From NCBI GenBank assembly GCA_902795345.1, contig CADBKO010000019.1, forward strand, positions 1 through 64,000: 64,000 nt of DNA, in the 5' to 3' direction. This DNA is from Oscillospiraceae bacterium. Lineage in GTDB: Bacteria > Bacillota > Clostridia > Oscillospirales > Oscillospiraceae. The translations under genes and the position numbers were made by a program. Position 1 is the first letter of the stretch, and each line of letters opens with the position of its first letter. Positions 33,070 to 40,024 of the stretch are shown here, one piece after another. A model generated the notes under the pieces. That model saw only the letters and a list, made by a program, of their open reading frames with translations. It made no database searches and was not told the origin of the DNA.

Positions 33070-33612
33070 TCAAAAGGGTGTCGAGGCAAAAAAGAAGCGG
33101 CTGACATCTTCTGCGGAATACTGCTCGTGCTTCATCCACCAGCGCACCGTCTCCGCAAAATCGCAAACCATGTGATTGAGCATGTATTCCCGCGGCACGT
33201 CGGAGTTATGCTTCACCAGTTCCCCCGAAAACAGCTGCACCAGGTATTCCTTAAAGTATCTCATAAACATCTCTCCGCTTTCGCAGGAGAGGATGCTTTT
33301 GATATATGGACGGCTGTCATTCAAATGGTACAGGATATGGGTGATTTCACCCACGATATCTTTCTTCCTCGACGAGAAATCGTGGGTGCTTTCCTCGTGC
33401 AGATCATCGGAAAAGACATGCTCGAAGATTTCCGTACACATGGCGCGAAGCAGCTCGTCTTTCGTCTCGAAATGAGCATAAAAGGTACTGCGCCCTATGT
33501 TCGCCGCATCTATGATTTCCTGAACCGATATATTGGAATAGGACTTTACTTCGAGAAGGCTCGTGAATGCTTCAAACACGGCCTTCCTTGTTTTTTTCTG
33601 ACGTCGATCCAT
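33070..33612 (-). CDS. TetR/AcrR-family transcriptional regulator
   Basis: The 180-residue protein has the TetR helix-turn-helix (VKSYSNISVQEIIDAANIGRSTFYAHFETKDELL) and an all-helical ligand domain of the Firmicute TetR_C_33 kind (FMRYFKEYLVQLFSGELVK, FAETVRWWMK). Two ATGs are adjacent; the second (33612) has the better distance from GGGAGG. It is divergent from the P1B ATPase gene with a 160-base intergenic region, making that gene its probable target. Confidence 0.92.
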   Translation of the reverse strand: MDRRQKKTRKAVFEAFTSLLEVKSYSNISVQEIIDAANIGRSTFYAHFETKDELLRAMCTEIFEHVFSDDLHEESTHDFSSRKKDIVGEITHILYHLNDSRPYIKSILSCESGEMFMRYFKEYLVQLFSGELVKHNSDVPREYMLNHMVCDFAETVRWWMKHEQYSAEDVSRFFFASTPF

Positions 33613-33674
33613 CATGACCTCCCGGACAATTCGGCCAAAAAGTTCGGTAACGTACTCTTGAAAGGATTTGCTTC

Positions 33675-33703
33675 TTGAAGCGGGCTTCGCCGGCCCGTAT
33701 AGT
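33675..33703 (+). promoter_or_regulatory. Probable promoter of the metal ATPase gene
   Basis: TTGAAG (33675-33680), 17 bases, TATAGT (33698-33703), about 75 bases before the ATG at 33777. A clear TetR-type palindrome was not identified in the interval. Confidence 0.5.
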
Positions 33704-33776
33704 CATAACCGTACAATGTGTTTCTTATGGAATGGATCATATCGTTTTAAACACGGCTTGTCAAGGAGGCACGGTC

Positions 33777-35705
33777 ATGATCTCGAAATGGCTTGAGAAC
33801 GAGGCTAAGGAAACCCTGGTCTGCGCCGTCATTTCGGCAATCGCGCTGGTATTGAGCATCACGGGGGCGCTGAAAAACACCCTGCCGTTCGATATCGCAT
33901 GGGTAGCCATCATCCTTTGCGGCATGCCGATCCTGACAGGCGCATACAAAGGCGTCATCATGGAACGCGACATCAAAGCAGACCTGCTTGTATCGCTGGC
34001 GCTGATTGCTTCCGTAGCGACCGGGGAATTCTTTGCCGCCGGCGAAGTCGCGCTCATTATGCAGATCGGCTCTCTCCTGGAGGATTATACCTCCGGAAAA
34101 GCAAGGGAGGGCATCGAAAAGCTCATAAAGATCAGCCCGCAGAAAGCACGTGTGATGCGGGACGGCGCGGCAGTCGAACTCCCGGTGGAGGAAGTCAAAG
34201 CCGGCGACATTCTCAGCGTTCTCGCTGGAGAAACCATACCGGTAGACGGTACGATCCTGGAAGGCGAAACCTCCATTGACCAGTCGGTCATGACCGGCGA
34301 AAGTATTCCCGTGGACAAGACCGTGGGAGATACCGTCTCCAGCGGTACGCTCAACCAGTTCGGCGCCTTTACGATGCGGGCCGATTCCGTCAGCGCAGAC
34401 AGCTCCCTGCAGCGGATGGTACGGCTGGCGGAGGAGGCCGAAGAAAACAAGGCGCCCATCGTGACTGCGGCTGACCGCTGGGCGACCTGGCTGGTGGTGA
34501 TTGCCCTTTCCTGTGCGGTCCTTACATGGATCCTCACCGGAGAGTTTATGAGAGCGGTCACGGTGCTGGTCGTCTTCTGCCCCTGCGCCTTTATCCTGGC
34601 GACGCCCACGGCCGTTCTCGCCGGTATCGGAAACGCGGCCAAATATGGCATCATCGTCCGTTCCGGCAGCGCGCTGGAACGGCTCTCGAAAATCCGGCGC
34701 GTTGCTTTCGACAAAACCGGGACCCTTACTTACGGTAAACCGCAGGTGACGGCAAGTGCTGCCGTCTCGGATCGTTACTCGGATTCCGACGTCCTGCGCA
34801 TGGCTGCCCTGGCGGAGCAGCGATCCGAGCATCCCCTGGGCAAAGCCATCTGGTCTGCGTATGAAAAAACAGGCGGAAAAAGCGAGGCCGCAAACGAATT
34901 CAAGATGATCGCCGGGCAGGGCGTTTCTGCCATCGTCGATGGCAAAACCGTTCTCGCCGGGAAGGAAGATTTCATGCAGGCCCAGGGGATCGACATCCGT
35001 GCATATGCTTATCCCCTGGCTTCCGAACGCAGCAAAGGAGCTACCGTCGTCTGCGTGGCGGCGGACAAGGAGCTCATCGGCTTTATCGCCCTTCGGGATA
35101 CGCTGCGCGAAGATGCGAAAACGACGGTCGAAAGGCTTCAATCCTTGGGCATCACGCCGATGCTTCTGACGGGAGACAATGAACAGGCCGCGTCTGCGGT
35201 CGCGGAAAGTGCCGGGATCCGCGACATCCGTTCCGATCTTCTTCCCGAGGAGAAGATGAATATCGTGAAAGGCTTTGCCGGTGGGACTGAACCGATCTGC
35301 ATGATCGGCGACGGCGTCAACGACGCTCTGGCCCTCGCAAGCGCCGACGCCGGGATCGCTATGGGCGGGATCGGCTCCGATATCGCGGTGGAGTCCGCAG
35401 ATGCGGTTCTTGTAAGCGATGAACTCAAGCGGCTGCCATATCTGTTCAGCCTCATGCAAAAGGTCATGAAGAAAGTGCATGTCAACATCATCGCTTCCCT
35501 GTTCATCAATCTGACGGCAGTGGTATTGTCGGCGCTCAGCGTCCTGAGTCCCGTCACGGGAGCGTTATGGCACAACTGCGGTTCTGTGTTCGTGGTGGTG
35601 AACGCAGCCCTGCTGCTGCGGCTGAAGGACGAATACCCGGATCAAAGGCCGGATATTCCTGATACTCTGAAAACAAGCAGCCGCAAGCTCTATTCCCCAA
35701 AATAG
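33777..35705 (+). CDS. P1B-type heavy-metal-transporting ATPase without an N-terminal metal-binding domain
   Basis: The 642-residue P-type ATPase has TGES (173-176, actuator), CPC (268-270) in the ion-binding helix, DKTGTLT with the phosphorylated Asp312, the EHPLGKA nucleotide-binding segment and GDGVNDA. The first membrane helices begin at residue 10, so the N-terminal HMA domain of CadA/ZntA/CopA is absent. The last helices carry HNCGSVFVVVNAALLL in place of the Asp of Zn/Cd pumps, so specificity is uncertain (Mn, Fe, Zn and Cd all possible). The ATG at 33777 follows AAGGAGG by seven bases; the in-frame extension to 33675 overlaps the promoter. Its codon use is less GC-extreme than that of flanking genes. 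Confidence 0.95.
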   Translation: MISKWLENEAKETLVCAVISAIALVLSITGALKNTLPFDIAWVAIILCGMPILTGAYKGVIMERDIKADLLVSLALIASVATGEFFAAGEVALIMQIGSLLEDYTSGKAREGIEKLIKISPQKARVMRDGAAVELPVEEVKAGDILSVLAGETIPVDGTILEGETSIDQSVMTGESIPVDKTVGDTVSSGTLNQFGAFTMRADSVSADSSLQRMVRLAEEAEENKAPIVTAADRWATWLVVIALSCAVLTWILTGEFMRAVTVLVVFCPCAFILATPTAVLAGIGNAAKYGIIVRSGSALERLSKIRRVAFDKTGTLTYGKPQVTASAAVSDRYSDSDVLRMAALAEQRSEHPLGKAIWSAYEKTGGKSEAANEFKMIAGQGVSAIVDGKTVLAGKEDFMQAQGIDIRAYAYPLASERSKGATVVCVAADKELIGFIALRDTLREDAKTTVERLQSLGITPMLLTGDNEQAASAVAESAGIRDIRSDLLPEEKMNIVKGFAGGTEPICMIGDGVNDALALASADAGIAMGGIGSDIAVESADAVLVSDELKRLPYLFSLMQKVMKKVHVNIIASLFINLTAVVLSALSVLSPVTGALWHNCGSVFVVVNAALLLRLKDEYPDQRPDIPDTLKTSSRKLYSPK

Positions 35706-36687: not shown

Positions 36688-37025
36688 TTTGAGAAACGCA
36701 TTAATCGGTCAGTTCGTTCATGTGCCGCTGCATGCTGATAAGAAGTTGTGATTGCAGAAATGCTGCAGTTTTCAGAATCAGGAGCCCCGCGCCGCAGCGC
36801 AGGGCTCCTGATCCGTATCGTGAAAGGAGCCCATGGCGCCCGCAAGCCGTTACCCATCTGGGTAAAGACCTTGACCTTGCAGCCCTATTCCTTGCATATA
36901 TCCTTGTACTGCCGCACCATATTCTATGCTTATTCACTTTTCTCTCTATTCTTACCCCTGCAAAAGGGCGGAAGGCATATCGGCGCCTTCCGTCCTTTTG
37001 TATATAACACTGGAATGGTTCCCGG
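36688..37025. other. Intergenic region (338 bases) with one strong hairpin
   Basis: No supported gene. A stable hairpin lies at 36777-36812: ATCAGGAGCCC pairs with GGGCTCCTGAT around a GC-rich loop that itself pairs; neither side has a T-tract, so it is not a standard terminator. After it comes an AAAGGAG followed by a ten-codon frame (36833-36865) that I do not consider a gene. The rest, 36870-37010, is AT-richer and shows nothing I recognise; a CGGAAGGC...GCGCCTTCCG repeat near 36970-36992 could end the minus-strand SLH gene transcript. Confidence 0.6.
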
Positions 37026-39137
37026 TCAATCCCCGCGCTTAACGTAGCTGATCGTACCGTCGGCAGCATAGAGCGTCAGCACCGTCCGGCCCTGCTCATT
37101 TTGCTGCAAGGTGTAGTCGGCGCCCTCTGCTTCGCCGTCCGATATTTCAAAAGCGACGTAGATGCCTTTTCCCGCTTCGCTCTCATAGGCATACACATCA
37201 AATTCGGAGGTGTTCACACCGTTCATATAGGTCATGCCATGGCCGGTTTCATCCACAATGAAATAGAGGGAGACATCCGAATAGGCCTCTCCGAAGGCGC
37301 TCAGATCCGCGTCCCAGGTGCCTATAAAATCGGTGATCTGCGCCAGCGTGTCTTCACTGCGCTGGGAATAATCCATATTCTCCAAGCAGAAGAGCCAAAT
37401 CACCTGCTTGATGGTCTGCTCATCCGCGTCCGCGTCGATCGCGGCGGTCAGCCAGTAAGCATAAGGGCCCTTCATATAGCTTAAAACAGCATCCAGGTCA
37501 CTGCCATAGCGGAATTCCAAATGATAGGACGTCGCCATGGTGTCCGGCAGGAAGAACAGATAGGTGAACTCCCCGGCATCCTCCGTGCTGCGGTACAGCT
37601 CCCCTTCCGTGGCCATGGGGATCTCCATTCCCTGATAGAGGATCGTCTCCTCCGCGCCCATCACGGCAGTTCCCATGGATTCATAATGATAGGTCTGCTG
37701 CGAACCATCCGACATGGTGACGGTGGCGCTGTGATCCGGCCAAAATGTGAACTGCTGCGCGCCGTTGATGAACCAGCAATCGAAGGCATACCCGCCGGAA
37801 GCGGCATAGGCCTCCACAGCGTCAGCTCCGTACAAATCAGAGCTGATGGAGCTTTTGAGCATCTCCACGACCCCATCCGCCTGCTGCTCACCGACGACAG
37901 CGGCGCAGGCGTCATGCCAGATGGCGTCATAACGCTCGTCCAGAATCACGGAAAACAGATTGTCATAGGAGGTGCCCGACTCGCCCGCGATGGCGGCAAA
38001 GGCGTCGGTCTCCACTGCTTCTCCCAGGTTTTCCGTAACGAAAAGGGTGACGCAGTCCCTCATCAGCCGGTCGTCGTAATCCGCAGGGATCGCGGAAGCC
38101 AGCCAGTAGGCGTATTCCCCCTCCGTGTAGTCGGTGAGGTTTTCCTTGGAGCCGCCGTAGCGGAACTCCAGATGATAGGTTTCTTCGGGGGTGTCGTCGC
38201 TGAAGGCGAAGTAGCGGAAGGCATCCTCCGCGCCATCGTCGCTTTCATAGACATGCATGGAAATGGGCAGCTCCATCCCGAAGTATGTGACCGGCATGTC
38301 CTCCACATAATGATAGCTGTGGCGGAACAACTCACGGCCCTGGGTGTCGGCACCGCTGATCGTGTTTCCTTCCACGGTAAAAACGGCTACGTCATGAAGG
38401 AAAAAGCAGTTGAACAGGGCATTCTCCGGATCCCCGGCATAGGTTTTGACGGCTTCATCTCCGTAAAGCTCGCTCATGAACCTCTCGGTAAACATCTGAT
38501 AGTAGACGCTCAGCTCCTCCGCGCTGCTGCAATAGGGCAGCAGCACTTCACTCCAGAGGGGAAAATACTTGTCCAGGCACATTTCCGGGAAAAGCTCGAT
38601 ATAGCTGCCGGCAAGCTGAGACAGCAGTTCATCGGTTCCGGCAAGTCGGGACAGCATGGCTTGCAGATCGGAAAGATAGACTTCAGCCTTTGGGGAAAAC
38701 ACAGTTTCAGTGGTATCCAGCAGCCCGGCACTCAGAGCCCAGCGCACAGCGGGAGCATACCAGGCAGTCCGCGCCACATCCGAATAAGGGATCTCCTCCC
38801 CCGCCGCGTCCGGCTTCTCTGCCCGCTTCCACAAAAAAGCGATCAATTGCGCCCGATCCAATTTCGCGTCTGGCGAGAACTTTCCGCCGCCGGTCCCGTC
38901 CGTCAGTCCTTTCTCCGCTGCCCAAAGGACGGCGGGATAGTATGCATCTCCCTCGTCCACGTCGGAAAACGGATTCTGTACCATGGTCGGTTCCGGGCTG
39001 CCGGCCTCTCTCCACAGGCAGACGACAGCTTCACTGCGTCGCAGCGGCAGCTCGTCCGCCGCCGCAGCGGTCAGCGGGAGCACACCGACAAGGACAGCCA
39101 GCGCCATCAACAGCATAAGGATTCTCGATCTTTTCAT
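37026..39137 (-). CDS. SLH-domain surface protein with two ZinT-like repeats
   Basis: The 703-residue exported protein has a signal peptide (MKRSRILMLLMALAVLVGVL to TAAAA), S-layer homology segments over about 30-180 (FSDVDEGDAYYPAVLWAAEKGLTDGTGGGKFSPDAKLDRAQL; YSDVARTAWYAPAVRWALSAGLL) and then two homologous approximately 190-residue modules with a lipocalin/ZinT-like pattern: (a) SYIELFPEMCLDKYFPLW to TYHLEFRYGG and EYAYWLASAIPAD; (b) DERYDAIWHDACAAVV to SYHLEFRYGS and PYAYWLTAAIDAD. ZinT proteins bind zinc; only one His of the metal site (in YHLEF) is clearly kept in each module. A third, shorter beta domain ends the protein. The ATG at 39137 has AAAGGAG seven bases upstream. Zinc or other metal capture at the cell wall is the inference. 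Confidence 0.8.
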   Translation of the reverse strand: MKRSRILMLLMALAVLVGVLPLTAAAADELPLRRSEAVVCLWREAGSPEPTMVQNPFSDVDEGDAYYPAVLWAAEKGLTDGTGGGKFSPDAKLDRAQLIAFLWKRAEKPDAAGEEIPYSDVARTAWYAPAVRWALSAGLLDTTETVFSPKAEVYLSDLQAMLSRLAGTDELLSQLAGSYIELFPEMCLDKYFPLWSEVLLPYCSSAEELSVYYQMFTERFMSELYGDEAVKTYAGDPENALFNCFFLHDVAVFTVEGNTISGADTQGRELFRHSYHYVEDMPVTYFGMELPISMHVYESDDGAEDAFRYFAFSDDTPEETYHLEFRYGGSKENLTDYTEGEYAYWLASAIPADYDDRLMRDCVTLFVTENLGEAVETDAFAAIAGESGTSYDNLFSVILDERYDAIWHDACAAVVGEQQADGVVEMLKSSISSDLYGADAVEAYAASGGYAFDCWFINGAQQFTFWPDHSATVTMSDGSQQTYHYESMGTAVMGAEETILYQGMEIPMATEGELYRSTEDAGEFTYLFFLPDTMATSYHLEFRYGSDLDAVLSYMKGPYAYWLTAAIDADADEQTIKQVIWLFCLENMDYSQRSEDTLAQITDFIGTWDADLSAFGEAYSDVSLYFIVDETGHGMTYMNGVNTSEFDVYAYESEAGKGIYVAFEISDGEAEGADYTLQQNEQGRTVLTLYAADGTISYVKRGD

Positions 39138-39159
39138 ACATCTTCTCCTTTCCAGTGTA

Positions 39160-39239
39160 GTTAGCATTTGCTAACTTTTGGGTGTTTATTATTCCCCTTT
39201 CCATAAAGAGAGGGGAATAATATGATTAGCATCTGCTAA
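39160..39239 (-). promoter_or_regulatory. Two palindromic operators and a hairpin in the leader of the SLH/ZinT-like gene
   Basis: GTTAGCATTTGCTAAC (39160-39175) and TTAGCATCTGCTAA (39226-39239) are near-perfect palindromes of one pattern, TTAGCA-N2-TGCTAA, 65 bp centre to centre. Between them a perfect 12-bp inverted repeat (39187-39198 with 39211-39222) would form a hairpin in the transcript. The upper operator lies right after the predicted start site, so a bound repressor would block initiation or elongation. MarR-type metal regulators such as AdcR use TTAAC/GTTAA palindromes of similar size. Confidence 0.7.
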
Positions 39240-39249
39240 CTTCAAGCAG

Positions 39250-39278
39250 ATTATAGAGCATGTTTTGCCTGATGTCAA
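39250..39278 (-). promoter_or_regulatory. Consensus promoter of the SLH/ZinT-like gene
   Basis: Minus strand TTGACA (39278-39273), 17 bases, TATAAT (39255-39250): a perfect sigma-A match, implying very high expression when not repressed. Confidence 0.85.
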
Positions 39279-39331: not shown

Positions 39332-39398
39332 TTGAAATAATCACCGCTGTGGCGTATAATCGAAAACAAGAGTTGTGCGCAATATGACGTTGCGCAAC
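39332..39398 (+). promoter_or_regulatory. ohrR operon promoter with palindromes just downstream
   Basis: TTGAAA (39332-39337), 17 bases, TATAAT (39355-39360). At +6 to +32 lie TTGTGCGCAA (39373-39382) and the perfect palindrome GTTGCGCAAC (39389-39398), candidates for the OhrR operator, although they differ from the TACAATT-type site of other OhrR proteins. Confidence 0.65.
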
Positions 39399-39562: not shown

Positions 39563-40024
39563 GTGACGGAACATTCACAAAAAACGAGCAAATTTGACTG
39601 TATCAAGCTGAGCAATCAGCTTTGTTTTCCCCTTTATGCCTGCGCAAAGGAAGTGATCCGGCAGTATCGGGGGCCGCTGGAGGAGCTGGGACTGACATAC
39701 ACGCAGTACGTCGTGATGATGGTGCTCTGGGAGTTCGGCGGCATGACGGAGGGAGAGCTTGGCAGGAAGGTGTACCTGGATTCCGGGACCCTGGCTCCCC
39801 TTTTGAAAAGGCTGGAAAAACAGGGCCTGCTCACCCGCGCCCGGTTGGAGGGCAACGAGCGGAAGCTCTATATTTCCCTGACGGCGCAGGGCGAGGCGCT
39901 CAAGGAAAAAGCGATCCTGGTCCCGCCCGCCATGCAGGGCTGCATCGACCTTTCCCAGGAGGAACTCATGGAGCTGAAACGGCTTCTGGACAAGGCCCTG
40001 CTCCGGATGGAGGCGCATACATGA
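39563..40024 (+). CDS. ohrR: OhrR-type MarR-family peroxide/thiol sensor
   Basis: The 153-residue protein closely follows Bacillus OhrR: FDCIKLSNQLCFPLYACAKE near the N-terminus, where the Cys of NQLCF is the reactive cysteine of the family, LTYTQYVVMMVLWE, and YLDSGTLAPLLKRLEKQGLLTR. OhrR is released from DNA when this cysteine is oxidised by organic peroxides. The start is taken as GTG 39563, nine bases after GAGGAGG; the ATG at 39554 touches that site. No ohr gene is adjacent; instead the radical SAM gene is coupled to it (ATGA). Confidence 0.92.
   Translation: MTEHSQKTSKFDCIKLSNQLCFPLYACAKEVIRQYRGPLEELGLTYTQYVVMMVLWEFGGMTEGELGRKVYLDSGTLAPLLKRLEKQGLLTRARLEGNERKLYISLTAQGEALKEKAILVPPAMQGCIDLSQEELMELKRLLDKALLRMEAHT

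Follow-up and report, generated by a model that had tools for sequence, protein, structure and literature searches.

A cell-wall-anchored protein with two ZinT-like modules as a candidate member of an iron-starvation regulon in an Oscillospiraceae bacterium

Introduction

In a 64-kb stretch of DNA from a rumen member of the Oscillospiraceae (64,000 nucleotides, hereafter the window), a consensus promoter followed by two palindromic operators precedes a gene for a predicted surface protein (P0001). The locus raises the question of which metal such a protein might gather and which repressor would hold its promoter shut. An earlier note, made from the letters alone, had read it as a repressor-controlled cell-wall metal scavenger, with ZinT as the structural relative and zinc as the metal in view. 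The logic of that reading and the surface anchoring stand, but in place of zinc the most likely metal is iron (or manganese).

Gene and protein architecture

37026..39137, minus strand: gene for the SLH/double ZinT-like surface protein P0001, 703 aa (open reading frame, ATG at 39137, Shine-Dalgarno AAAGGAG)
39057..39137, minus strand: signal peptide, residues 1-27 (sequence inspection by eye)
38643..39050, minus strand: SLH region, residues 30-165, predicted cell-wall anchor (PF00395)
38022..38636, minus strand: ZinT-like module 1, residues 168-372, candidate metal ligands D315, H322 and E324 (AlphaFold2 model, Foldseek, invariance)
37368..37991, minus strand: ZinT-like module 2, residues 383-590, candidate metal ligands D532, H539 and E541 (identity to module 1, AdcA-matching profile)
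37029..37310, minus strand: C-terminal domain, residues 610-703, predicted all-beta (from a model of low confidence)

A signal peptide (by inspection) and SLH repeats (by Pfam) mark P0001 as the SLH-anchored surface protein that the earlier note had described, with PF00395 matching in two stretches (E=7.4e-17; E=6.2e-18 for residues 1-225 alone). SLH proteins usually carry three repeats; only two were recognised here, though a degenerate third may exist. Each about 205 residues long, the two modules are indeed homologous to each other, as had been read from the sequence (32% identity, E=1e-27). They are followed by a C-terminal domain of about 95 residues, for which a search with the low-confidence model of module 2 and the C-terminus gave no database match below 1e-3. 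Full-length homologues with 84% and 70% identity to P0001 are present in related genomes. Several homologues lack SLH repeats and carry an apparent lipoprotein signal instead (judged by eye), and retention at the surface looks like a theme common to the family members.

Fold of the modules

SLH is the sole domain that Pfam recognised in P0001; the ZinT model (PF09223) gave no match at E<=1, short of its curated cut-off, and a weak match (E=0.057) in only 1 of the 11 modules of the module set. As Pfam is blind to the ZinT part of P0001, the question of a ZinT relationship needed profile and fold searches. A profile (A1) built from 11 modules, module 2 included, and searched against all PDB sequences retrieved the ZinT domain of AdcA (7jja, E=1.4e-5; 7jj9, 6.8e-5) and no further entry below 0.7. 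For module 1, an AlphaFold2 model (pLDDT 78.8, pTM 0.77) matched nine ZinT/AdcA structures in Foldseek (E 7.7e-9 to 3.1e-6, probability 1.00), with no other kind of entry below 1e-3 and the next match at 0.08. TM-scores against ZinT/AdcA ranged from 0.54 to 0.63, except for full-length AdcA when normalised by target length (0.28), at 16-17% identity to the solved structures. The predicted model of module 1 thus has the lipocalin-like fold of ZinT, and the resemblance noticed earlier in the order of segments is borne out both by this match and by the AdcA profile match (7jja, E=1.4e-5), a profile search without ZinT similarity being the outcome that the earlier note had named as contrary to its reading. 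The model of module 2 with the C-terminus was of low confidence, and no usable fold match was found with so poor a model. Most likely, the module has a ZinT fold and is a distant ZinT homologue, though Pfam does not recognise it and the zinc ligands are not all kept.

Promoter, operators and neighbouring genes

39250..39278, minus strand: sigma-70 type consensus promoter TTGACA-N17-TATAAT (12/12 matches; TTGACA at 39278, TATAAT at 39250)
39225..39240, minus strand: operator 1, GTTAGCAGATGCTAAT (pattern search)
39187..39222, minus strand: 12-bp hairpin between the operators in the leader (-19.2 kcal/mol, z -4.7)
39160..39175, minus strand: operator 2, GTTAGCAAATGCTAAC (pattern search)
36777..36921, minus strand: DUF2325 gene remnant with its inverted repeat, located downstream of the SLH gene (91% identical to L004:10657-10750 and 96% to L004:10393-10445)
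39563..40024, plus strand: divergent MarR-family regulator (PF01047, E=8e-16)

The promoter reported as perfect matches the consensus at every position, and the 12-bp hairpin reported between the palindromes is present at 39222-39187. Counted from a transcription start assumed 7 nt past the -10 box, the operators would span roughly +4 to +19 and +69 to +84. Both contain the TTAGCA-N2-TGCTAA first described, free of mismatches, and are the sole matches to it in the 64-kb window with up to two mismatches (0.68 expected); three sites only match with at most one mismatch in the 2.75-Mb genome. Their true extent is longer than this, with the pattern GTTAGC-N4-GCTAAY and the box GTTAG-N6-CTAAC. A hairpin resembling that of P0001 is also found in the leader of the 84%-identical homologue (L076). 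The two operator copies can pair in the leader RNA and enclose the hairpin, here (39138-39243) as well as at L076:2401-2498 and L089:1947-2050 (z -5.8, -6.7 and -2.7, respectively), a pairing that may be the mere result of two similar palindromes.

The region 39332-39398 holds a promoter for the divergent MarR gene (11/12 matches), followed by the palindrome GTTGTGCGCAA-N7-TTGCGCAAC, which is likely the MarR operator. The OhrR-like MarR gene is followed, up to 43370, by radical SAM, beta-lactamase-fold/rubredoxin, thioredoxin reductase-like and thioredoxin-like genes. At 1.3 kb from the SLH gene, a P-type ATPase gene (E1-E2_ATPase domain, 33675-35705) adjoins a TetR-family gene (33070-33615).

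A box shared with ferrous-iron import genes

Exact copies of GTTAG-N6-CTAAC occur at five sites in the 2.75-Mb genome, namely operator 2 and four sites on a second contig (C18). Two of these four are at feoA-feoA-feoB (one ahead of feoA, one between feoA and feoB), one is ahead of a DUF2325 gene, and one is ahead of a DtxR-family repressor gene that is followed by a gene for a ZIP-family transporter. Six further boxes have one mismatch, four of them at the same places as exact sites (operator 1 included) and two isolated (C28:39748 and C34:23281). Since the count at up to one mismatch is not above that of the reversed control pattern (11 versus 20), the argument rests on the exact sites and their positions; looser searches with two mismatches (100 sites versus 361 for the control) were dismissed as noise. 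FeoB is present in the genome, and the operator stands before iron-uptake genes, as in DtxR/IdeR iron regulons, both here and in six relatives (feoA-feoA-feoB in each case). The SLH/ZinT-like gene itself lies on a separate contig from the feo locus, and its place in a conserved box regulon containing feo is well supported by sequence and by comparison across genomes. Control by a metal-responsive repressor, as first proposed, gains support because the same box precedes feo and the DtxR/ZIP locus here and the feo loci of six relatives. The genome-wide scan, in which operators missing from all metal-transport genes would have spoken against such control, located boxes at feo and ZIP. The DUF2325 remnant that follows the SLH gene is 91-96% identical to the intact locus on C18, which hints at a former link of this region with the feo-associated genes.

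The module family was found in 18 of 400 genomes of the taxonomic family, and a class-wide search of 291 genomes gave only two weak partial matches (5e-4 to 6e-4) beyond the source genome, so the module family seems narrow. In ten genomes with a homologue, exact boxes number 78 against 7 for the reversed pattern; they stand ahead of feoA-feoA-feoB in six of the ten, and also at or near flavodoxin, ZIP, DtxR and DUF3793 genes. Across 19 homologue loci (193.6 kb), 28 exact boxes compare with a mean of 0.03 for 29 permuted palindromes of equal composition, and a box precedes the homologue or its operon in 14 of the 19 loci, two of the other five having no upstream sequence. In L076, L089 and L051, with differing core sequences, and in L084, with closer spacing, the promoter is likewise followed at once by one box, and another box precedes the ribosome site. 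The box thus accompanies homologues in other genomes too, and frequent neighbours there are flavodoxin, Feo-associated genes or ABC transporters; L081 and L049 have a flavodoxin gene upstream of the homologue, apparently in one operon. Flavodoxin has an iron-sparing function, and its presence in the operon is fitting for iron starvation.

Several of these loci show further features. In L081:3833-10910, four boxes separate a flavodoxin/ZinT-like/ABC operon from a divergently oriented NifH/CfbC-like gene, which is accompanied by an iron-chelate-type ABC importer; this is possibly an iron-regulated nitrogenase-like cluster. In L082, L085, L079 and L050 the homologue is beside or near fused ABC transporter pairs, and in L082 and L085 an AraC-type gene adjoins it, with methyltransferase-like genes further along; ABC-pair loci with such genes could possibly encode a metallophore system. 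DUF3793 genes lie directly behind an iron-type box in two relatives (L137:1480-2037, L050:4435-5019).

Candidate repressors

Two DtxR-family proteins of this genome score above the PF01325 cut-off, one encoded beside the C18 boxes (L004:11160-11546) and one at L093:1468-1857. Both keep the Cys-x-x-Glu-His metal-site motif in alignment with IdeR (EDYLKTI...DACEIEH in the box-linked paralogue, EMYLETI...DACRIEH in the second). The first metal ligand position holds Asp in the box-linked paralogue and Met in the other, Met being the residue of IdeR; we take the Asp to be a manganese-regulator feature as in MntR and the Met to resemble DtxR. The closest PDB entry to the box-linked paralogue is MntR (2h09, E=2e-16). 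Because the recognition helices are almost identical, either paralogue could bind the box, and a division of labour between manganese and iron on one box is possible.

A putative recast metal site

Zinc in AdcA is bound by His452, His461 and His463 (PMC7858048). Each module of P0001 keeps one of these three His, in agreement with the single metal-site His per module reported before. Aligned by hhalign with seven ZinT/AdcA sequences (E=1.2e-4, probability 55%), the modules pair SDD with SDH and TYHLE with SSHFH, which would make Asp315, His322 and Glu324 the ligands. The HMMER alignment to AdcA gives the same Asp and slides the second part by two residues, placing the kept His opposite the third ligand. 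A single ligand His is kept in either register, and the Asp-His-Glu assignment hinges on how a weak alignment is registered. All 24 modules covering the region have Asp315, His322, Glu324 and Arg326 without exception, a constancy that speaks for a functional site and against decay.

Fe(II) or Mn(II) is more typically bound by an Asp-His-Glu set than zinc is, and the putative site of P0001 would be suited to either of the two. As the metal-binding histidines are mostly replaced by acidic residues, and as the gene appears to be under iron-shortage control along with a ferrous-iron importer, P0001 is probably an iron (or manganese) scavenger and not a zinc scavenger.

Alternative explanations

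A zinc scavenger under zinc control, induced by zinc shortage like ZinT and AdcA, would be in line with the fold, with the one ligand His that is kept and with the ZIP transporter of the regulon, which matches a zinc-transporter model below its cut-off. However, no FUR-family protein (hence no Zur), no ZnuA/AdcA/MntA-type binding protein and no classical ZinT (PF09223) were detected in the genome, which at 91% completeness and 66 contigs leaves a small doubt on each absence; a ZnuA-type protein is the partner served by ZinT elsewhere. Judged by the missing FUR family and by a box common to feo, a zinc-responsive repressor is not indicated either. A reading of the operator as a Zur box was dropped on these same two grounds, and a zinc regulon was rejected because FUR, ZnuA and classical ZinT all went undetected. 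With boxes at the ferrous-iron import genes, and carboxylates (Asp and Glu) at two of the three zinc ligand positions in 24 of 24 modules, the zinc angle of the earlier note did not hold up, and this explanation is quite improbable. More remote still is the idea that the divergent MarR-family regulator (39563-40024) owns both operators: no other regulator gene is nearer, and divergent promoters are frequent targets of MarR proteins, but the box also occurs at feo on another contig and in relatives, and the MarR promoter carries a different palindrome of its own, GTTGTGCGCAA-N7-TTGCGCAAC (39372-39398), immediately past the -10 box. MarR was thus rejected as the repressor, given its own TTGCGCAA palindrome and the recurrence of the box at feo.

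The regulon might instead sense manganese and the protein gather Mn(II), as the nearness of the box-linked DtxR paralogue to MntR (2h09), its Asp where IdeR has Met and the suitability of an Asp-His-Glu site for Mn(II) would allow. This is improbable in view of the boxes ahead of feoA-feoA-feoB here and in six relatives and ahead of flavodoxin genes, of the Cys of iron-type DtxR kept in the box-linked repressor, and of the undetected ZnuA/MntA-type binding protein. Perhaps, under iron regulation, the ligand of the barrels is not the bare ion but an iron complex, be it a metallophore, haem or a small organic ligand. Lipocalins commonly bind small organic ligands or complexes, the usual zinc triad is lost, homologues lie beside fused ABC transporter pairs (L082, L085, L079), and the homologue in L081 has in its vicinity an ABC importer of the iron-chelate type that weakly matches the haem-binding IsdE. 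Yet the barrels of ZinT and AdcA take bare ions, the invariant Asp, His and Glu align with the ion site, and no such importer adjoins the gene in this genome, which leaves an iron complex as a rather unlikely ligand.

Proposed function

The explanation we favour, with moderate confidence, is that the gene belongs to a DtxR/IdeR-type iron-starvation regulon and that its ZinT-type barrels gather ferrous iron at the surface. With iron (less likely manganese) in ample supply, a metal-loaded DtxR-type repressor on the two operators would block a strong transcript, stopping initiation or elongation from about +4 to +19 and +69 to +84. Upon iron shortage, the gene would be derepressed together with feoA-feoA-feoB and the ZIP transporter, and the product would be exported and held on the cell wall by its SLH repeats, displaying two ZinT-type barrels. 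In each barrel the three-His zinc site of ZinT would be recast as Asp-His-Glu for Fe(II) or Mn(II), and the barrels would raise the local Fe(II) concentration at the wall for import by FeoB, possibly with ZIP. The fold family, the SLH region, the regulation and membership in the box regulon are well supported by sequence evidence and comparison, while the choice of DtxR paralogue, metal binding by the predicted site, the identity of the metal and the hand-over to FeoB are steps that we infer.

We know of no established surface receptor or ion-gathering protein for FeoB uptake in Gram-positive anaerobes. P0001 is a concrete candidate for such a FeoB-linked ion gatherer, given its apparent co-regulation with feo, its putatively recast metal site and its predicted retention at the surface by SLH repeats. 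Targeted literature searches did not find a report of an iron-regulated ZinT-like protein; a Bifidobacterium ZinT in a low-iron secretome was set aside as an ordinary zinc protein. We advance only tentatively, leaning slightly towards doubt, the wider proposal that a branch of the ZinT fold changed its metal and, through an invariant Asp-His-Glu Fe(II) site, DtxR/Feo control, duplication and wall attachment, became a wall-bound scavenger for free Fe(II) among gut/rumen Clostridia. If true, a zinc-binding fold would have been re-used for another metal, which cautions against calling such proteins zinc-binding by fold alone.

Comparison with known systems

With ZinT (YodA, PF09223) and the C-terminal ZinT domain of streptococcal AdcA, P0001 shares the fold (best Foldseek match 7.7e-9), the order of segments and the profile match (1.4e-5), and it is likewise predicted to be an exported metal-starvation protein. 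It differs from them in its tandem modules and SLH anchor, in its low identity to the solved structures (16-17%), in having Asp-His-Glu in place of the His-His-His zinc triad, and in belonging to a DtxR/Feo regulon in a genome where ZnuA and Zur went undetected. BslK of Bacillus anthracis combines SLH repeats with a haem-binding NEAT domain (PMC4143258). Both proteins would thus hold an iron-related binding module on the cell wall via SLH repeats, whereas the module is a haem-binding NEAT fold in BslK and a ZinT barrel in P0001.

As in the DtxR/IdeR/MntR regulons, two DtxR-family repressors occur here together with a palindromic box at ferrous-iron and ZIP transporter genes. The DtxR/IdeR box has the sequence TTAGGTTAGSCTAACCTAA and differs from the GTTAG-N6-CTAAC of this genome, for which a DtxR-family protein is the candidate binder. 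The SLH/ZinT-like gene is outside the feo operon, on another contig, in contrast to feoA, feoB and their DUF2325 and DUF3793 neighbours, but it has the box in common with the Feo locus and retains a DUF2325 remnant just downstream.
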